From Microcella sp. (lineage in GTDB: Bacteria > Actinomycetota > Actinomycetes > Actinomycetales > Microbacteriaceae): a stretch of 64,000 nt of DNA. The stretch is from assembly GCF_019739195.1 (NCBI RefSeq), contig NZ_JAHHDS010000003.1, positions 372,001-436,000 on the forward strand, given 5' to 3'. The notes below the pieces were generated by a model that was not told where the DNA came from, made no database searches, and worked only from the letters and a program-made list of their open reading frames with translations. Shown here in pieces: positions 5,481 to 52,728 of the stretch; the stretch's first letter is position 1, and the number at the start of each line of letters is the position of its first letter. The position numbers and the translations under genes are program-made.

Positions 5481-5562
5481 CCACCATTCAGGAGTCGCGT
5501 GCCCGGCGGCATCTCCACAATTCAGGAGTCACGCACGAGGGCGCGCCCCCACAATTCAGGAG
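5481..5562. repeat. Three 14-bp direct repeats at a 34-bp period
   Basis: CCACCATTCAGGAG (5481), CCACAATTCAGGAG (5515) and CCACAATTCAGGAG (5549) are spaced exactly 34 and 34 bases apart. The third is also the left end of the 94-bp palindromic element at 5549-5642. Confidence 0.85.
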
Positions 5563-5642
5563 GTGCGGCTCAGAAACGGCGGTTCGGGATGCTCGCACGG
5601 CGTGTCGACCGGGCGCGAGCATCCGGAACTCCTGAATTGTGG
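5549..5642. repeat. 94-bp palindromic repeat element, copy 1
   Basis: It begins with CCACAATTCAGGAG and ends with its exact reverse complement CTCCTGAATTGTGG. An inner pair of arms (around TTCGGGATGCTCGC and GCGAGCATCC) flanks a centre containing GTGTCGACC. Copy 2 at 5934-6027 has the same length and nearly the same sequence. The shape suggests a REP/BIME-like or MITE-like element. No transposase gene is near. Confidence 0.85.
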
Positions 5643-5747
5643 AGGCGCCGGTGTCAAGGGGTGGTCTGCGCGGCGTGCGCTCGCTTCACTCGAAGACACG
5701 GGGCCGCTCATCGAGAGCGAATCACCCCGCGGTGAGAGGAGCACACC

Positions 5748-5912
5748 ATGAGCATGAGCGACAGCACCGAACCGGGCACGCAGCGCGACCCACAGGCCGA
5801 CGACACCAACGACCTGCGCAGCGTCGACGAGGCGCGCGAAGAGGCCGCGGGCGATCAAGACGACGCCGCCGAGACCGAAGCCGACGAAGACCGCACGCGG
5901 GGCTACGTCTAG
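5748..5912 (+). CDS. Acidic microprotein between two palindromic repeats
   Basis: 54 residues, opening MSMSDSTEPGTQRDPQADD and ending TRGYV. GAGAGGA lies just upstream of the ATG. Roughly a third of the residues are Asp or Glu, with no hydrophobic segment, so it is predicted to be disordered and cytoplasmic. It is one of five such proteins in the first 10 kb (7079, 7315, 9164, 9548); its MSM-D opening resembles the one at 9164. Function unknown; a hydrophilin-like stress role is a guess. It sits exactly between the two 94-bp repeats. Confidence 0.6.
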   Translation: MSMSDSTEPGTQRDPQADDTNDLRSVDEAREEAAGDQDDAAETEADEDRTRGYV

Positions 5913-5933
5913 CCTCTGCCGCCTGTGGGTTCA

Positions 5934-6027
5934 CCACAATTCAGGAACCGCGGCCCAGAAACGGCGGTTCGGGATGCTCGCACGGCGTGTCGACCGGGTG
6001 CGAGCATCCCGAACTCCTGAATTGTGG
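5934..6027. repeat. 94-bp palindromic repeat element, copy 2
   Basis: It runs from CCACAATTCAGGAA to CTCCTGAATTGTGG with the same inner arms and the same GTGTCGACC centre as copy 1, differing at only a handful of positions. The shared 94-bp length shows that this is a defined element rather than a chance hairpin. It starts 22 bases after the acidic microprotein stop and may also serve as its transcription stop. Confidence 0.85.
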
Positions 6028-44440: not shown

Positions 44441-44479
44441 GAGTCAGTCGTGCGGATTCACCATCCGCACGACTGACTC
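44441..44479. terminator. Perfect 17-bp hairpin between convergent genes
   Basis: 44441-44457 and 44463-44479 are perfect reverse complements around TCACC. It lies between the membrane protein and the convergent J-domain gene and can serve both. Confidence 0.8.
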
Positions 44480-44510: not shown

Positions 44511-45437
44511 TCACACGAAGCGCACGGCCGACTGCAACCGCGTGCGCACCTCGAACAGGTCGGTGCCGCCGACTCCGACCCCGGGCAGCCCCGTGCGGAT
44601 GGCGTTGACGAGGCGCGAGCGCTGCAGCAGCAGGCCCTGGGCCCCCCGCACGGTGCCGAGCTCAGTGAGCGACTGCGCGGCCTGATCGTCTTCGACGACG
44701 ATTGCAAGGGCCGAGAACTTCACGCGCCCCGCCCGCGCGAGCACGCGCGCCCTCGAGCCCAGCAGTGCGAGCGGCTTCTCGCCGGGCGCCAGGCCCTCGC
44801 CGATGACCTCGCCGCGCTTGACCGACACCGCGGTGCCCCAGTCTTCACTCAAGACCGCCCATAAGCCCGTCGGCCCGAGCACGACGTGGTCGAGCTTGTC
44901 GTCGCGCGTCGACCCGGCAAGCACGTCGTGCCAGATCGTGAAACCCATGCCGAGGGTCGCCAAGGCCGCGGCCGAGCGCTCTTCGGCGATCGCCGCCGCG
45001 AGCAGGTGACGGATCTGCCGGGGTGCCGAGCGCACGAGGGCATCGTCGAAAGGGTCGGGCAGGTCGGCTCCGCGACCCACCCACTCGCGGATGTGGTCGA
45101 GGTACTGCTCGCGATACCACCCGCCGGGGTGGCCGTGCGACTTCGCCGAAGGCCGCGAGTCGTAGCGCTGCGGGCCCGAAGCCCCGCCGCCCGACTGCGA
45201 CCAGGCGCGCGACACAGAGCCAGCATCCGCCCCCGAATCGTAGGCGTTGCGCGCTGACGGCGAGCCGACCCGCTGCCACGCCCGCTGCACGGCGTCGAAC
45301 TGCGCAGCCGAGCCGCCCGTATCGGGGTGGGCTTTGCGAAGCGCTACCCGGTACGCCCGTTTGAGTTCGTCGTCTGACGCCGTCGGCGAGACCCCCAGCA
45401 CCTCATAAGGGTTGGCGGCCAGAGGTGAATCAGACAT
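44511..45437 (-). CDS. J-domain protein with NERD-like C-terminus
   Basis: 308 residues. The N-terminal J-domain (residues about 9-65) has NPYEVLGVSPTASDDELKRAYR, the HPD tripeptide in KAHPDTGG, and FDAVQRAWQRVG. A Ser/Gly/Pro linker follows. The C-terminal half (about 150-300) contains DKLDHVVLGPTGLWAVLSEDW, close to the NERD pattern in which the protein meets DNA or a nuclease site. J-domains deliver clients to DnaK. The NERD-like part may make it a nuclease-linked co-chaperone, which is inference. No dnaK is nearby. Confidence 0.78.
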   Translation of the reverse strand: MSDSPLAANPYEVLGVSPTASDDELKRAYRVALRKAHPDTGGSAAQFDAVQRAWQRVGSPSARNAYDSGADAGSVSRAWSQSGGGASGPQRYDSRPSAKSHGHPGGWYREQYLDHIREWVGRGADLPDPFDDALVRSAPRQIRHLLAAAIAEERSAAALATLGMGFTIWHDVLAGSTRDDKLDHVVLGPTGLWAVLSEDWGTAVSVKRGEVIGEGLAPGEKPLALLGSRARVLARAGRVKFSALAIVVEDDQAAQSLTELGTVRGAQGLLLQRSRLVNAIRTGLPGVGVGGTDLFEVRTRLQSAVRFV

Positions 45438-45475: not shown

Positions 45476-45640
45476 TCAGTGGGCGAAAGCCGGTTCGAAC
45501 CCCAGATCACCCGGCGGCAAGAAGTTCAGCAGCACCACGATCGTTGCCGTGGCGAGCACGAAGATCGTCGACGCGATGATGGCGAGGGCCACACTGAGTC
45601 GAGATGTCGTCTGCTGCGGCGCTTCGAGCTGTTTGTTCAT
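45476..45640 (-). CDS. Small single-pass membrane protein
   Basis: 54 residues: MNKQLEAPQQTTSRLSVA, then a hydrophobic helix (about 16-41), and a short outer tail NFLPPGDLGFEPAFAH. The ribosome site is CCAGGGGGTGTACTC, which repeats the core of the upstream microORF. The upstream microORF at 45660-45725 ends 19 bases before this ATG, so the two could be coupled. It follows the beta-glucan operon on the same strand and may belong to it, for instance as a synthase accessory. Confidence 0.65.
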   Translation of the reverse strand: MNKQLEAPQQTTSRLSVALAIIASTIFVLATATIVVLLNFLPPGDLGFEPAFAH

Positions 45641-45659
45641 GAGTACACCCCCTGGAAAG

Positions 45660-45725
45660 CTAGTTAAGGTAGGCGGGCGGCGCGGAGCACACCACCCCCT
45701 GGACGAGTCGGCGAGAGTGGTTCAT
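45660..45725 (-). CDS. MicroORF A, 21 codons with core VQGVV
   Basis: From ATG at 45725 it encodes MNHSRRLVQGVVCSAPPAYLN and a stop at 45660, given here because its length is at the limit of what can be quoted. MicroORF B at 50405-50461 aligns without gaps from the ATG: M-x-H-x-R-x-x-V-Q-G-V-V. Fifteen bases (CACCACCCCCTGGAC on the plus strand) are identical. It lies just upstream of the small membrane-protein gene. It may be a leader peptide that controls translation of that gene, but no expression evidence exists in the sequence. Confidence 0.5.
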   Translation of the reverse strand: MNHSRRLVQGVVCSAPPAYLN

Positions 45726-45751
45726 AATGCCGCTGCGCCGCCGTGCCGCCG

Positions 45752-47839
45752 TCATCGCTGCGCCATGATGAACGCCAGCAGGTAGCTGCGCGAATTGCCG
45801 TCGTCGATGCTCGACAGCGGCAGGTCGCGTGCGGCCTCGAGCGCGAGCTCGGCCTGCTCGCTGCCCGCGAGCGCCTGGTACATGAGCAGGTAGTCGGCGA
45901 ACTGCGGCGCCGGCCCCTGCGCGGTAGCCTCATCGATATTGGCGAGGATGCGCTCCGGATCGCCCGCGAGCGACGCCGAGGTGCCCGGCCGCATGGGCAG
46001 CAGTTGAATGCCCAGAATGGCCGCGGGTTCGGGACTGAACCAGGTGCCGTAGTCGCGCTTGCCATCCCACACGATGCCGACGACGGAGCGGTCGAAGCCG
46101 TCGTACGGCTGCGTGGTCGTATCGAACTGCGTGTAGTAGGTGCGGGCGGAGTGCGACTCGAGGGCGAGCATCCACCGCGCCTGCTCTTCCAGGGCCGCAT
46201 CGCCGGCGACGGCGCCCCACAGCGCGAGCGAATGGTGCGCCGCGACGGCCTCCGAGCTCGACTCCTGGTTGTTGCCGTCGGCGAACGGGGAGAAGCCCGA
46301 CGCCCACGAGTGGCCCGAGTACGGGTCGAACGCGCGACGGGTCGGAAGACTCTCGCCACCCGAGCTCGCGATATCTGCAGCGAGCAGCGAGATCATCGGC
46401 CGCAGCTCGTCGACGAGTTGCTCGTCGACGAGTTGCTCGTCGACCTGCCCCTCGTCAGTCAGCGAGGCCACGGCGGCCGCGTAGATGAAGCTGCCGTAGT
46501 GGAAGTGGTGGTCGTTGAACTCGTCAGAGCCGAACGATGGCACCTGGCCGACGATGCCGCGCAACTCGGGGTCGTAGACGAAGCAGCGGTCAGCACGAGA
46601 CTCGCAGCCGTCGAGTTCAGCCCACGTGCGCAGTTCTCCCACCAGCCGCTCGCGCAGGTCGTCAGCGATGCCGGGCTGCTGCAGCTCGTGCGCGAGAGAC
46701 AACAACGTGGCGATGCGGGCGAGAGCCTTGCCACCGAAGTACGTGTCCGCGGGCAGGTCGGGAATCGTGGAGGCCTCGAGCTTGAGAACCTCGACAAGTT
46801 CATCTCGCTCGGCCTCGGAGATTCCGCTCAGATCGAGACTGCTCAACGTCTCGACGTCTGACCCCGCCGAGACCGGCACCGAGTACGACAGCTCAGAGCC
46901 GCCCCACAGGGTCATCGACCCGTACGTCGTCAGCACCTCGCCTAGCGCACAATCGGTGGCCACGTCGTTCTCGCGCTGGTGAGGCAGTGCCCCGATGATC
47001 GTGGGCGAATCGTCGGCGGTGCGATACCTCAACGTTGTCAGGGCTTCGTCTCCGTCGACGCTGTACTGCACGTCGACACCGACGATCGGGCTCGACGCGA
47101 GCGGTGCGATGTCGTCGACACTCGAGCCCTCGGGCACGACTGCCCACGTGGCCGAGGCGCCCTCGGGCAGGCGCAGCGTGCGCCCTTGCCCGTCGAGCTC
47201 ACCATCGGCAGCGACGAGCGCATACTCAGCGTCGACGACGCGTGCGCGCCACACGCCCGGTTCGTCCGCGGGTTCGAACGACGCGCCCAGTTCGAGTTCG
47301 TGCTCGACCGCAGCGCGATAGCCCACGATGGGCGAGCCGCGCGCGATCGTGACGGTACCGAGCTCGACGTCGCTGTCGTCGAGCATGGCGGTCGCGACCG
47401 AGACCTCGTCAAACCCGGTGACGAGCGTCTGAGCAGCGCCGACATCGACCGCGATGTGCGCGACCGCGGGCGCCGCGATCAGGCCCGGCTGCGTGGTCAC
47501 CGAAGGCACGCCGAAGGAGAACCCGCCGTCGGTGAGCGCGAACGACAGTGGCAGCGGAAAGACCGGCTGCGGTTCATCACCGAACACCATGCCGCTGAAC
47601 CAGCGATTGGTGGGCGGCACCAGGTCGTCGGCGAGGCGCTGCATCGATACGGATGCGAGCGAGTCACGCGGCACCTCATCGAGGTACTGGGCGATCTCGG
47701 AGTCAGGCAGCACGACGCGGCCATCGTCCGCCGCCGGCGCGTCGTCCGGCGGCGCGGCTGCGGAGCACCCCGACAGCACCATCGTCAGCGCGATGGTGAG
47801 GGCGGTGGCCATGCGGCGCTCGTTCATCGCCGCGCTCAC
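45752..47839 (-). CDS. GH81 endo-beta-1,3-glucanase lipoprotein
   Basis: 695 residues. A signal peptide with lipobox LSGC anchors it outside. GH81 landmarks follow: VPPTNRWFSGMVFGD near the start, DCALGEVLTTYGSM in the middle, EFNDHHFHYGSFIYAAAVAS, and DPYSGHSWASGFSPFADGNNQESSSEA, which includes the catalytic Glu residues. GH81 enzymes cut beta-1,3-glucan internally. The start overlaps the HlyD-like gene (ATGA). Placed behind a glucan synthase it probably trims or releases the polymer. A tandem QLVDE repeat (DNA period 15) lies near residue 465. Confidence 0.88.
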   Translation of the reverse strand: MSAAMNERRMATALTIALTMVLSGCSAAAPPDDAPAADDGRVVLPDSEIAQYLDEVPRDSLASVSMQRLADDLVPPTNRWFSGMVFGDEPQPVFPLPLSFALTDGGFSFGVPSVTTQPGLIAAPAVAHIAVDVGAAQTLVTGFDEVSVATAMLDDSDVELGTVTIARGSPIVGYRAAVEHELELGASFEPADEPGVWRARVVDAEYALVAADGELDGQGRTLRLPEGASATWAVVPEGSSVDDIAPLASSPIVGVDVQYSVDGDEALTTLRYRTADDSPTIIGALPHQRENDVATDCALGEVLTTYGSMTLWGGSELSYSVPVSAGSDVETLSSLDLSGISEAERDELVEVLKLEASTIPDLPADTYFGGKALARIATLLSLAHELQQPGIADDLRERLVGELRTWAELDGCESRADRCFVYDPELRGIVGQVPSFGSDEFNDHHFHYGSFIYAAAVASLTDEGQVDEQLVDEQLVDELRPMISLLAADIASSGGESLPTRRAFDPYSGHSWASGFSPFADGNNQESSSEAVAAHHSLALWGAVAGDAALEEQARWMLALESHSARTYYTQFDTTTQPYDGFDRSVVGIVWDGKRDYGTWFSPEPAAILGIQLLPMRPGTSASLAGDPERILANIDEATAQGPAPQFADYLLMYQALAGSEQAELALEAARDLPLSSIDDGNSRSYLLAFIMAQR

Positions 47840-48579
47840 AGGTCGAGGGCGGTGCGCACATCGGCGATGAACTCGCGAACGGCATCGGTGAAGGCGGCCA
47901 GGGCGTCGTCGTTGCGCAGGTCCATAGTCGCGTTGACCGGGGTGCCGGGCAGGATGAAGTTGTCGAGCTCGTCGAACTGCCGCTGGTCGATGAGCACCGT
48001 CACGACAGCGATCGCGTCGCCGTCAGCGGTCGTCGTCTCGACCGGGCCAGCCTCGCCGATCAATTGAGTGCCGTCAGGCAGCGCAACAACGACCTGAGCG
48101 CCCTCGTAGATACGTGCGAAGTCAGTCGGGGTGAGGCGGAACTCGGCGGTCACCGACAGGGTCTCGGTAGCGGCAATGGAGGCGATCGACGCACCGGCCG
48201 GCGCATAGGCACCCTGCGGAACCTCGACATCCAGCACAATGCCCGTCACAGCCGAGGTCACCGTGAGGGTGCCGTCGGCATTGACGCGGTAGACCTCCGT
48301 CGACTGCACCACCAGGTCGTCGTTCAGGTCACGCAGCAGGTCGTTGCTCTGAATCGTTGCGATCGGGTCGCCCGGGTTCACAAGGTCGCCGCGCGAGACG
48401 AACTGTTCGACTACGGGGCCGGGATAATCGCTGCCGACGCCGTAGTTGACGGCGTCGATCTGCGCCGAGGTCGCCGTGGCTTCACCTTTGCGCTGCGAGA
48501 GCGCGACCGTGAGGGCCGCGACGAGAGCGACGACGAGAATGGTGCCGAAGAACAGGCGAAAACGGGTCGACCAGGTCAT
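47836..48579 (-). CDS. Membrane-fusion-like (HlyD-type) partner of the glucan synthase
   Basis: 247 residues. One N-terminal helix (FRLFFGTILVVALVAALTVAL) anchors it. The outer part has a lipoyl/barrel-like half motif (PGPVVEQFVSRGDLVNPGDPIATI) and its return half (TSAVTGIVLDVEVPQGAYAPAGASIASI), the membrane-fusion-protein pattern, here without the long coiled coil. BgsB of the mixed-linkage glucan system of rhizobia is of this type. Overlaps both neighbours by ATGA. Probably guides the nascent glucan through the envelope. Confidence 0.78.
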   Translation of the reverse strand: MTWSTRFRLFFGTILVVALVAALTVALSQRKGEATATSAQIDAVNYGVGSDYPGPVVEQFVSRGDLVNPGDPIATIQSNDLLRDLNDDLVVQSTEVYRVNADGTLTVTSAVTGIVLDVEVPQGAYAPAGASIASIAATETLSVTAEFRLTPTDFARIYEGAQVVVALPDGTQLIGEAGPVETTTADGDAIAVVTVLIDQRQFDELDNFILPGTPVNATMDLRNDDALAAFTDAVREFIADVRTALDL

Positions 48580-50273
48580 GAGGTCACTTCCTTCGTTGAG
48601 CGTGCGGTGGCGGCCATGCGAACGCTGCGACGTCGCGCGGCCCTGTCGGCCAGGCGGATGCGCCGCGCCTCGATCACTGCCGTGATAATGAACGCGCAGA
48701 TGATGAGGGTGTTGGTGACGTTCCAGGCGGTCGCGAGCGTCAGGGCACCGTTGCCCAGGTCTTTGTAGATGGCGACCACCGACGTCAGGGCGAGGAAGAC
48801 GAAGAAGAGCGTCTGGGGCACCATGTAGTTGAACGGCGACTGCCGCTTCCGGGCGCCGCCCGTGACGTGCCAGCTCTTACGTCGGCCGGTGATGACGTTG
48901 ATGAGCGCGCGCAGGTAGATCGGAAACGACACGGCGGCGAGCATGAGCGTCTCCCAGCGGAACGACCCCATGGTCGCGAAGGCCAGCAAGATCTGAAGCC
49001 CGTAGAAGCCGAAGTAGAAGGCGAACCACTCGAAGGGCGTGACCCCCAGGTTGACCGGCCGAAGATCGAAGAAGATCTCGAGAGGCGGCACCATGAGCAG
49101 CATGAGGGGCACGATGCCGATCAGGTAGTGCGTCGCGGTCACCAGGTACTGGATGCGCTGATCAGGGGTGAGCCGCCGCCGCCGGCTGAGCGGGTTGTGG
49201 GTCAGCAGAATCTCGAACCCTCCGGTCGCCCACCGCATCTGCTGCTTCGTGTAGTCCTCGATCGTCTCCGGGGCGTCGCCGACCGCGAGAGTGATCGGAA
49301 TGTAGACCGATGTCCACCCGCGCTCGTGCAGCATGAGGGAGGTCCAGACGTCTTCGGAGAGCGAGTCGGTGTAGATGCCCCCCACGTTGTCGATGGCCGT
49401 GCGCCGGAAGACGACGTTGGTGCCGACACAGAACGCGGCGTTGAAACGATTGCGACCCGGTTGCACGAACCGGTAGAAGAGCGATTGCATGAACGCCGCA
49501 CCCCGAGCGATGAGGGTCGTGTGATTGCCGTAGGTCTGCGGCGTCTGCACGAACGCCACCTTCTCTTCGACGAAGAACGGCACGGTCTCGATGAGAAAGT
49601 CGTGGGCGGGTACGAAGTCGGCGTCGAAGATGGCGAAGTACTCTCCGGAGGTCACGCTCAGGGCGTGGTTCACGTTGCCCGCCTTGGCGCCGTTGCTGCT
49701 GAGTCGCCTGATGTAACGGGCTCCGAGCCGCGCCGCGAGTTCGCGCACATCGTCAGAGCGCCCGTCATCGAGAATCCAGGTCTCGTGCTGGCCGTGCATG
49801 GCGAGCGCCGCCGTCGCCGTGCGCTCGATCACCTCGAGCGGCTCGCCATACACCGTGATGAAGACATCGATCGTGACGGGTGCTTCGTCGATGCGCAGCG
49901 GCTCGCTCTGCGGAACCACATGGGGGCGTTCGCCGAGCGAGTTCACCGACTGCACGATCTCGCGCTGCGTGCGATGAAACGCGAAGCCGCGGGGGTCCTG
50001 GCCGCCCGACAGAATCGTCCACAGCGAGACGAGCGCATGACTGATCAGCACGACCTCGGCGATGATCACGAGCACGAAGGGCAGCAGATCGCCCCTGTTC
50101 TCGGGGTTGAGGAGAAAGATCGAGTACGCGAGCGCACCGAGCAGGGCGAGCACGATGAACAGCAGCACCGAAGGCGAGTTGATCGACGCGTTCACGGGCG
50201 TGTGCGCCACTGGCTCGTCGATCGAGTACCGTCGGCCGACTGCGGGCTCAGGTCGTGTCGGGGTGGTCACCAT
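48576..50273 (-). CDS. GT2 beta-glucan synthase (BcsA/BgsA/CrdS-like)
   Basis: 565 residues. Two N-terminal helices precede a GT2 domain: VFITVYGEPLEV, WILDDGRSDDV, AIFDADFVPAH (the DxD), FCVGTNVVFRRTAI, DSLSEDVWTSL (the T/SED catalytic motif) and KQQMRWATGGFEI (QxxRW). Four or five helices follow. There is no PilZ domain, so c-di-GMP control, if any, is not through this protein. Such processive enzymes make linear beta-glucans from UDP-glucose and extrude them. Presence of a GH81 beta-1,3-glucanase and a BgsB-like partner argues for a beta-1,3 or mixed-linkage glucan rather than cellulose. Confidence 0.85.
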   Translation of the reverse strand: MVTTPTRPEPAVGRRYSIDEPVAHTPVNASINSPSVLLFIVLALLGALAYSIFLLNPENRGDLLPFVLVIIAEVVLISHALVSLWTILSGGQDPRGFAFHRTQREIVQSVNSLGERPHVVPQSEPLRIDEAPVTIDVFITVYGEPLEVIERTATAALAMHGQHETWILDDGRSDDVRELAARLGARYIRRLSSNGAKAGNVNHALSVTSGEYFAIFDADFVPAHDFLIETVPFFVEEKVAFVQTPQTYGNHTTLIARGAAFMQSLFYRFVQPGRNRFNAAFCVGTNVVFRRTAIDNVGGIYTDSLSEDVWTSLMLHERGWTSVYIPITLAVGDAPETIEDYTKQQMRWATGGFEILLTHNPLSRRRRLTPDQRIQYLVTATHYLIGIVPLMLLMVPPLEIFFDLRPVNLGVTPFEWFAFYFGFYGLQILLAFATMGSFRWETLMLAAVSFPIYLRALINVITGRRKSWHVTGGARKRQSPFNYMVPQTLFFVFLALTSVVAIYKDLGNGALTLATAWNVTNTLIICAFIITAVIEARRIRLADRAARRRSVRMAATARSTKEVTS

Positions 50274-50404
50274 GGGTCTTCTCTTTCGCTGGGTACTGGC
50301 GCAGAGCGGGGTCAGGGCTCAGAGAGACGGCGACGGCGGCGACTCACGGTGCCGTGCCATCGCGGGGGTCGCGTGCACAGCGGCATGACTGTCAGCGGGC
50401 CACG

Positions 50405-50464
50405 CTAGAAGAGCGGGTCGAGCCGCACCACCCCCTGGACATCTGGGCGAAGATGAGTCATCAT
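50405..50464 (-). CDS. MicroORF B, 18 codons with core VQGVV
   Basis: From the ATG at 50461 (or 50464) it encodes MTHLRPDVQGVVRLDPLF and stops at 50405. It lies 131 bases upstream of the glucan synthase gene on the same strand and opposite the start region of the oligopeptidase gene. Same size and same core as microORF A; the His is encoded by CAT here and CAC there, whereas the VQGVV codons are identical. Candidate leader peptide of the glucan operon; unproven. Confidence 0.5.
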   Translation of the reverse strand: MMTHLRPDVQGVVRLDPLF

Positions 50465-50475
50465 GTGGCGCCGCT

Positions 50476-50487
50476 TACGCTGGTGGA
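50476..50487 (+). promoter_or_regulatory. -10 element TACGCT, leaderless start
   Basis: TACGCT at 50476-50481, six bases, then the GTG at 50488. Confidence 0.5.
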
Positions 50488-52728
50488 GTGAAACACGCCC
50501 CCGAGCACTCGTCCGACACACACCCGCTGCCCGCACCCCGCCCTGCCCAGAAGCCCACCCGCCGCGAGCACCACGGCGACGTCGTGATCGACCCCTACGA
50601 GTGGTTGCGCGAGAAGGAGAGCCCCGAGGTCATCGCTCACCTCACGGCCGAGAACTCCTACGCAGATGCTCGCATGTCGCACCTCGAGGGCCTGCGCGAC
50701 GCCATCGTCGGCGAGATCACGGCCCGCACGCAAGAGACCGACATGGGCATTCCCGTGCGGGAAGGCGACTGGTGGTACTACGGCCGCACGGTCGAAGGGC
50801 TGCAGTACGGCATCCAGTGCCGTGTGCCCGCAGCGCCGATCGACCCCGCGAACCCCGACGACCCCGCCGCCTGGGCTCCCCCGCCGCCCTTGCCCGACCC
50901 GAGCCAGCCGCGCGACGGCGAGCAGATCGTCATCGACAGCAACGTCGAAGCCGAGGGGCACGACTTCTTCTCGCTCGGCTCGCTCGACGTGAGCGATGAC
51001 GGCAACTGGCTGCTGTTCGGGGTCGACACCGAGGGTGACGAGCGCTACACCCTGCGCGTCCGCAGTCTCGTTACGGGCGAGACGCTACCCGACACGATCG
51101 AGCAGACCGCGGGCGGGGCCTTCTTCGACCCGAGTGGGCGCTACGTCTTCTACTCGACCGTCGACGACTCGTGGCGACCCGACACCGTGTGGCGGCACCG
51201 CGTCGGCACCGACCCGGCCGACGACGTCGCCGTCTTCCACGAGCCCGATGACGGCTTCTGGGTGGGCGCGGGCCTCACCCGCAGTCGCCGCTACCTCGTG
51301 ATCGAGGCCTCGAGCAGCATCACGAGCGAAGCCCGCGCGCTCGATGCGTCGACCCCCGAGGGCGAGTTCGAGATCGTCTGGCCGCGCCGTGCCGGAGTCG
51401 AGTACGACCTCGACCATGCCGTGATCGACGGGCGCGACCTGTGGCTCATCACCCACAATGACAGCGCTCCCGACTTCCAGATCGTGGCGGTGCCGACGGA
51501 TGCTCCCCTCGCGCCGCCCGAGACCCTCATCCCGCACGAGGCCGGTCGTCGGGTCGAGGGCATCGATGCCTTCTCGCGCTTCCTGGTGCTCGACTACCGG
51601 CGCGACGGCCTGCCGGCCACGGCGATCGCGCACCTCGATGGCTCACCGCTCACCTTCAGCGACATCGTCGTGCCGCTCGCCGACGATGCCAAGCTGCTCA
51701 GCATCGGCGCCCGCGGCAACCCCGAGTGGAATCAGCCCACGCTCCGCATCGGCTACGCGAGCTTCACCGAGCCCTCGACCGTGGCAAGTCTCGACGTCGC
51801 GCGGCTCGCCGACGGGGCCGCCGCGGTCACCGTGCTCAAGCAACAGCCCGTGCTCGGCGGATACTCGTCGGCTGACTACACCGAGCGGCGTGACTGGGCC
51901 GTCGCCCCCGACGGCACGCGCGTGCCCATCTCGCTCGTGTGGAAGAAGGGGCTGGCACCGCGACTCGATGGCGACGAGAAGGCTGAGCCGAACGCGCTGC
52001 ATCTGTATGGCTACGGCAGCTACGAAGCCTCGATCGACCCCGGCTTCAGCATCCCGCGCCTGTCGATGCTCGACCGCGGCGTCGTCTTCGCGATCGCGCA
52101 CGTGCGCGGCGGCGGCGAGCTCGGCCGTGCCTGGTACGAGCACGGCAAGACGCTCACCAAGACGAACACGTTCACCGACTTCGTGGCCGTGGCACAGCAC
52201 CTCGTCGACACCGGCGTGACGGCACCCGACCGGCTCGTCGCCGAGGGCGGCAGCGCGGGCGGGCTGCTCATGGGCGCCGTCGCCAACCTGGCTCCACAGC
52301 TGTTCGCCGGCATTCTCGCCGACGTGCCGTTCGTCGATCCACTCACGAGCATCCTCATGCCCGAGCTGCCGCTCACCGTGATCGAGTGGGACGAGTGGGG
52401 CAACCCGCTGCACGACGCCGAGGTCTACGCCTACATGAAGGCATACTCGCCCTACGAGAACGTCACCGAGCAGCACTACCCGCGCATTCTCGCGGTCACG
52501 AGCCTCAACGACACGCGCGTGCTCTACGTCGAGCCGGCCAAGTGGGTCGCGCGCCTGCGCGATGTCGGCGCCGACGCCGTGCTGCGCTGCGAGATGGAGG
52601 CCGGGCACGGCGGCGTGAGCGGCCGCTACTCGGCGTGGAAGCAGCGCGCCATCGAGATCGCCTGGCTGCTCGATGTGCTCGGCGTGACCGACAGCGACAC
52701 GGCCCTCGCCGCCCCCGTCAAAAACTGA
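50488..52728 (+). CDS. ptrB: Oligopeptidase B (S9A prolyl oligopeptidase family)
   Basis: 746 residues from a GTG. The family opening RREHHGDVVIDPYEWLREKESPEVIAHL is at about 28-55. A beta-propeller occupies about 75-430. The catalytic domain has LYGYGSYEASIDPGFS, FAIAHVRGGGELGRAWYE, EGGSAGGLLMGAVANL (Ser), SLNDTRVLYVEPAKWVARL (Asp) and EAGHGGVSGRY (His). Oligopeptidase B cleaves short peptides after basic residues in the cytoplasm. Length is slightly above the usual ~690-720 because of a proline-rich insert near residue 130. Confidence 0.92.
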   Translation: MKHAPEHSSDTHPLPAPRPAQKPTRREHHGDVVIDPYEWLREKESPEVIAHLTAENSYADARMSHLEGLRDAIVGEITARTQETDMGIPVREGDWWYYGRTVEGLQYGIQCRVPAAPIDPANPDDPAAWAPPPPLPDPSQPRDGEQIVIDSNVEAEGHDFFSLGSLDVSDDGNWLLFGVDTEGDERYTLRVRSLVTGETLPDTIEQTAGGAFFDPSGRYVFYSTVDDSWRPDTVWRHRVGTDPADDVAVFHEPDDGFWVGAGLTRSRRYLVIEASSSITSEARALDASTPEGEFEIVWPRRAGVEYDLDHAVIDGRDLWLITHNDSAPDFQIVAVPTDAPLAPPETLIPHEAGRRVEGIDAFSRFLVLDYRRDGLPATAIAHLDGSPLTFSDIVVPLADDAKLLSIGARGNPEWNQPTLRIGYASFTEPSTVASLDVARLADGAAAVTVLKQQPVLGGYSSADYTERRDWAVAPDGTRVPISLVWKKGLAPRLDGDEKAEPNALHLYGYGSYEASIDPGFSIPRLSMLDRGVVFAIAHVRGGGELGRAWYEHGKTLTKTNTFTDFVAVAQHLVDTGVTAPDRLVAEGGSAGGLLMGAVANLAPQLFAGILADVPFVDPLTSILMPELPLTVIEWDEWGNPLHDAEVYAYMKAYSPYENVTEQHYPRILAVTSLNDTRVLYVEPAKWVARLRDVGADAVLRCEMEAGHGGVSGRYSAWKQRAIEIAWLLDVLGVTDSDTALAAPVKN

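Follow-up and report, generated by a model that had tools for sequence, protein, structure and literature searches.

A 15-bp block shared by two putative promoters at a beta-glucan synthase locus of Microcella sp., probably a cis-regulatory site and most likely misread as twin micropeptides

Two very short open reading frames (microORFs) lie on either side of a beta-glucan operon of Microcella sp., and they share an identical stretch of 15 nucleotides. The locus raises the question of whether this identity reflects a pair of related leader peptides, as an initial annotation of the DNA had proposed, or a site in the DNA itself. Here, the two copies are examined in the window (the whole stretch of 64,000 nucleotides that was analysed), in the 2.88-Mb genome that contains it, and at the corresponding loci of relatives. 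Overall, the element is most likely of an ordinary kind, a shared promoter site that was misread as peptides; the twin micropeptides are a false lead, and a testable candidate cis-regulatory site takes their place.

The repeated block and the genes around it

The features of the locus, in the coordinates of the window, are as follows.

44511..45437, minus strand: gene for a DnaJ-domain protein, a neighbour conserved in the genus
45476..45640, minus strand: gene for a small membrane protein of 54 amino acids with one hydrophobic stretch
45660..45725, minus strand: microORF 1, judged untranslated
45666..45671, minus strand: -10-like box TACCTT, 18 nt downstream of block copy 1
45690..45704, minus strand: copy 1 of the 15-bp block, in the putative promoter of the small membrane protein gene
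45752..47839, minus strand: gene for a GH81 protein (C-terminal domain, E 9e-58)
47836..48579, minus strand: gene for a HlyD-type adaptor protein
48576..50273, minus strand: gene for a GT2 beta-glucan/cellulose-synthase-like glycosyltransferase
50274..50396, minus strand: putative 5' leader of the GT2 operon, holding a GNCGCC-N4-GNCGCCG motif seen in relatives
50402..50407, minus strand: -10-like box TAGCGT, 18 nt downstream of block copy 2
50405..50461, minus strand: microORF 2, judged untranslated
50426..50440, minus strand: copy 2 of the 15-bp block, in the putative promoter of the GT2-HlyD-GH81 operon
50488..52728, plus strand: divergent prolyl oligopeptidase gene

GH81 proteins are endo-beta-1,3-glucanases. 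Candidates for the glucan product of the operon include cellulose, curdlan, and a mixed-linkage polymer, and the adjoining GH81 gene suggests beta-1,3 linkages. The best matches of the GT2 protein in the PDB are cellulose synthases (E about 1e-51). It has a GT2 catalytic region in common with the beta-glucan synthases BcsA, CrdS, and BgsA (PMC6821405; PMC5567048), but differs from them in its score against the NCBIfam cellulose synthase model (268 bits, well under the 699-bit cut-off) and in its HlyD and GH81 neighbours. The 54-amino acid protein had no Pfam or NCBIfam match; this unannotated membrane protein is a possible partner of the GT2 synthase. Several other repeats were noted in the window: a 15-nt tandem duplication in the GH81 gene at 46408-46446, a 17-bp perfect inverted repeat between convergent genes at 44441-44479 (perhaps a two-way terminator), and, within 5512-6014, direct repeats at least 18 nt long that are spaced 385 nt apart (5571 and 5956).

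Both minus-strand microORFs reported in the initial annotation are present, as is the 15-mer that they share. MicroORF 1 translates to the 21-amino acid peptide MNHSRRLVQGVVCSAPPAYLN and microORF 2 to the 18-amino acid peptide MTHLRPDVQGVVRLDPLF, each followed by a stop codon. The block, GTCCAGGGGGTGGTG, is identical at both positions, and the genome holds these two exact copies, no site with one mismatch, and 11 sites with two mismatches; the letter-reversed pattern, searched as a control, gave 11 matches in all. Exact repeats of this length are not rare, with 196 distinct 15-mers repeated within the window (overlapping ones counted). Better evidence comes from the alignment of the two upstream regions and from their equal spacing to a downstream TANNNT box. 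The Smith-Waterman score of the two regions was 34, against 17.5 +/- 2.5 for shuffled sequences, none of 200 shuffles being equally good, and the alignment spans 53 columns, from a GCGGCGC near the start of the oligopeptidase gene to the end of the block.

Peptides versus promoter DNA

The initial annotation proposed that the microORFs may be translated, as leader peptides or stalling sites built on a conserved core, M-x-H-x-R-x2-VQGVV. Both do open with an ATG and align from it, and their His codons differ synonymously (CAC and CAT), a difference that had been taken to favour constraint on the peptide. That argument does not survive a count over the whole alignment, in which 10 of 18 codons differ, nine of them non-synonymously and just one synonymously, with 5, 8, and 5 differences at codon positions 1, 2, and 3, respectively. 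Nor is the peptide conserved: when GT2 genes of relatives were searched for an upstream VQGVV, a check that had accompanied the proposal, the core was found at one of 47 loci (40 without duplicates), namely in the window itself, and one-mismatch forms occurred at other positions in L027 and L062 (apparently the same genome) and in L077. With this count and the lack of a coding signature between the two copies, micropeptide conservation was rejected. Moreover, inspection by eye of the 25 nt before each ATG revealed neither a Shine-Dalgarno sequence nor a TANNNT box, and the putative -10 boxes are located at the ends of the microORFs, so that a transcript initiated at the usual distance would begin at or past the ORF. 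Translation of the microORFs as leader or stalling peptides is accordingly considered extremely improbable. The uORF of ilvBNC in Corynebacterium (PMC10272879) is likewise a short ORF upstream of an operon; at the locus studied here, in contrast, there is no conserved peptide and no ribosome site by eye, and the putative transcription start is at or past the ORF.

At both copies, the gap from the end of the block to the TANNNT box is 18 nt. The two boxes, TACCTT and TAGCGT, fit the TANNNT pattern given for the -10 region of high-GC Actinobacteria (PMC3160421); the leaderless genes of that source differ from the arrangement here, where leaders of about 20 nt (small gene) and about 120 nt (GT2 gene) are inferred. 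The TAG of the second box doubles as the "stop codon" of microORF 2, and microORF 1 ends 6 nt below its TACCTT box. Across the whole genome, the pattern GGGGTGG-N18-22-TANNNT has three matches, comprising the two copies here and one site within a coding frame; it is not enriched, the reversed pattern having eight matches. A scan for consensus promoters found one over both copies on the plus strand and none on the minus strand.

The block is probably a cis-regulatory site that the GT2-HlyD-GH81 operon and the small gene have in common in their promoters. This reading is supported by two unique copies, extended similarity, equal spacing, the lack of a coding signal, and partial conservation at orthologous GT2 genes. 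The block would act as double-stranded DNA, either as an operator or as an activator site reaching into the -35 region, in two minus-strand promoters, that of the operon and that of the gene for the 54-amino acid membrane protein just downstream of it. The TANNNT box 18 nt further down would serve RNA polymerase as its -10 element, a putative regulator that binds the block would control the two promoters jointly, and the microORFs would be by-products of two copies of promoter DNA. The initial annotation had also held that the identity of the block favours constraint at the nucleotide level, and in this it appears to have been right. Its proposal that the two transcripts are coordinated is plausible if promoter DNA is the means, although not if peptides are: the shared block suggests that the operon and the small gene are switched on together, and the small protein may work with the glucan synthase. 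A further claim, that the core of the block recurs in the ribosome site of the small gene, is correct in part. The sequence GGGGGTGGTG is absent there, whereas TCCAGGGGGTG, read directly at about 45646-45656 on the minus strand, is shared with the block and forms a partial third copy. It is likely the Shine-Dalgarno sequence of the small gene, and a further possible role is that of a second binding site close to the transcription start.

Operator sharing between the promoters of one regulon is a general bacterial arrangement. The present case resembles such regulons in that one short block lies equally far from a -10-like box in the promoters of two neighbouring and probably related genes. It differs from them in that the genome contains no other block site within one mismatch and in that the regulator is only putative. 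Among the openly licensed papers listed, as judged from their listings and the openings of their abstracts, none dealt with the regulation of such an operon in Microbacteriaceae.

Conservation at GT2 promoters of relatives and in the genus

Of 398 genomes of the family Microbacteriaceae, 49 gave a match, and the analysis covers the loci among the matches listed. The 39 other GT2 upstream regions compared with that of the window were drawn from the family and the order. It should be noted that GT2 starts were approximate, being taken from the alignment, that some upstream regions include coding sequence, and that the upstream stretch of L031 is short. Seven duplicates (L053, L055, L058, L062, L063, L068, and L069) were excluded from the counts of k-mers near TANNNT and of inverted repeats, and motif discovery additionally excluded the near-duplicates L075, L078, and L079; L026 duplicates L019, and the distant loci L039-L052 (30-35% identity) were left out.

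Seven-mers of the block with the same spacing (+/-3) to a TANNNT box as in the window were found in 5 of the 39 regions, against a mean of 0.08 and a maximum of 1 in shuffled sequences; these were L021 (same genus, from genome G002), L027, L028, L030, and L060. On the reverse strand, none of the 39 regions had such a 7-mer. Six-mers extended the count to seven regions by adding L035 and L077 (shuffle mean 0.47, maximum 2), and 8-mers were found at that spacing in none of the 39. Eight other distances between block and TANNNT gave 0 or 1 loci with 7-mers and 0 to 3 with 6-mers, and the block with its letters reversed gave no locus at that spacing. Letter-shuffled blocks did as well in a few instances: with 7-mers, 3 of 200 trials reached 5 loci, and with 6-mers, 11 of 200 reached 7. 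At the same position, the reverse complement of the block matched 1 locus with 7-mers and 5 with 6-mers. Conservation of the exact sequence is therefore only moderate, because the GT2 promoters of relatives are rich in G and C runs. What appears to be conserved at that place is a G-rich element, its exact letters less surely. Within three mismatches, the block was not found at these promoters in the nearest relatives with the operon, G005 (80% GT2 identity) and G018 (79%). For the congener G002, the entire region upstream of GT2 scored barely higher than shuffles (24 versus 19.3, 9 of 200 equally good), and a 36-base pattern comprising the ORF start and the block had no match with up to three mismatches in 198 other genomes.

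Within the genus, GT2 was found in 4 of 26 genomes (this genome, G002, G005, and G018; E up to 1e-80). Homologues of the small gene, accepted mainly on their position beside the DnaJ gene, were found in this genome, G020 (E 0.001), G005 (0.003), G007 (0.02), and, weakly, G004 (1.05). In G020, G007, and G004, the small gene is flanked directly by the oligopeptidase gene and the DnaJ gene, without the operon, and in G002 the operon occupies this place without the small gene; among the congeners found, this genome and G005 alone have both. The assemblies are 81% (G005), 75% (G020), 97% (G007), and 100% (G004) complete, and the absence of GT2 from the 75% complete G020 is sure for this locus only; G007 and G004 have no GT2 match at E 1e-80. 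A filter for a small hydrophobic ORF downstream of GH81 likewise retained only this genome and G005 among 19 loci (L037 having no GH81 match). Additionally, G009 and G007 (L101 and L103) have a GH81 homologue close by, downstream of the DnaJ gene, and both genomes lack a GT2 match at E 1e-80.

In both genomes that carry the operon and the small gene (n = 2), the control regions of the two units are matched, each time with a different sequence. The GT2 and small-gene control regions of G005 align with a score of 72 over 112 columns (shuffles 19.5 +/- 2.7, 0 of 200 equally good) and carry GTCCCYAGACCYCGGAC and GAGCGACGGAGGACA, a sequence that differs from that of this genome. The former motif also precedes the small gene of G007 and, in a one-mismatch form, that of G004, and the small-gene region of G020 aligns with both the GT2 region (66) and the small-gene region (111) of G005. 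Against the small-gene regions of G005, G020, G007, and G004, that of this genome scored within background. Its GT2 leader is similar to that of G018 (37 versus 20.7 +/- 2.5) and, in the leader motif, to that of G005 (31 versus 19.0). In this genome the small gene carries the GT2-type block with no detectable trace of the small-gene promoter of its congeners, and in G005 it is the GT2 operon that carries the promoter and leader of the small gene. One reading is that promoters were exchanged in opposite directions. Another, at least for G005, is that insertion of the operon behind the leader of the small gene duplicated that leader, and this is suggested because the alignment between G005 and G020 also covers the oligopeptidase side. 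Regulatory convergence, in which the glucan operon and the small gene came to share a control region twice and by different routes, is put forward tentatively as a possibility. If it were true, the 54-amino acid protein would either work alongside the beta-glucan synthase or regulate it, and a hitherto undescribed regulator of glucan synthesis would act at the block. Two points of interest remain: each of two species has a matching pair of promoters, with sequences that differ between the two, and the small protein may be a partner of the synthase.

Rival readings and other upstream elements

Besides the peptides, three further explanations of the block were weighed against its role as a promoter site. 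The copies could be footprints of the arrival of the operon between the oligopeptidase and small genes, left by duplication or recombination with no regulatory role. The operon is present or absent at this very place (absent in G020, G007, and G004), the copies bracket it, the operon of G005 is bracketed by a longer repeat of 112 columns, and the G005 GT2 upstream region aligns with the G020 small-gene region on the oligopeptidase side as well, as though an insertion had put the operon behind the leader of the small gene. However, sites without the operon carry the other motif, GTCCCYAGACCYCGGAC, and no block, the spacing to a -10-like box is kept equal at both copies, and a related element is kept at GT2 promoters elsewhere; a purely passive footprint is therefore regarded as unlikely. 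The two accounts are compatible, because an insertion that duplicates a promoter would also place both units under the same control. A chance match, or a disused promoter relic, at the small gene could be imagined given the many 15-mers repeated in the window, but it is highly improbable for a sequence with just two genome copies that lie 4.7 kb apart, each upstream of a gene, with extended similarity and equal spacing. Finally, the element might be a plus-strand promoter of the form TGGACR-17-CATNAT that serves the oligopeptidase gene and also drives an RNA antisense to GH81. Both copies, reading TGGAC(A/G)-17-CAT(A/C)AT, agree with the consensus at 9 of 12 positions with a 17-nt spacer (shuffle mean 0.0). 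Yet none of 39 relatives has such a promoter antisense to GT2, the oligopeptidase gene has its own TACGCT near the start (by direct reading also in G005, G020, G007, and G002), and the promoter at copy 1 would yield merely RNA antisense to GH81, which leaves this explanation very unlikely. The reading of the block as a site shared by two minus-strand promoters is the preferred one.

An RNA element was also considered as a candidate and received no support, the folds being ordinary and no Rfam family reaching its gathering score. The two ORF segments folded no better than shuffles (32 and 183 of 200 equally good), and neither did the GT2 leader (54 of 200). In the leaders of 20 loci, no Rfam family reached its gathering score (tRNA and tmRNA matches lay elsewhere); at E up to 1, a below-threshold snoRNA match was returned at 50416-50481 on the minus strand (22.4 bits versus 56) and nothing at the other copy. 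Motif discovery in 37 GT2 upstream regions did not recover the block as its best motif, which was instead G.CGCCA.CGtCGCCG, a motif of the leader that is frequently situated 60-80 nt upstream of GT2. In the form GNCGCC-N4-GNCGCCG it occurs in L027, L028, L029, L032, L033, L059, and others, and in the window at about 50325-50345 on the minus strand. No consistent uORF accompanies it in three frames and no Rfam family matches it; it is possibly a DNA or RNA regulatory element.

Two other features of GT2 upstream regions were noted in relatives. An inverted repeat, CCCC-N3-6-GGGG, is present in 16 of 40 regions, compared with 2.6 in shuffles, for a pattern chosen post hoc; the loci include L021, L022, L029, L032, L056, L059, L060, L064, L066, L070, L076, and others, and the window is without it. 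This repeat looks like the site of a dimeric regulator. Further, two ORFs directly upstream of GT2 in L036 (4188-6097) read, from their sequence, like a histidine kinase and a NarL-type response regulator. Such a pair directly upstream of GT2 was seen only in L036 and its duplicate L069, and weaker relatives of the L036 response regulator (35-36% identity) are encoded further off in L035 and L031.
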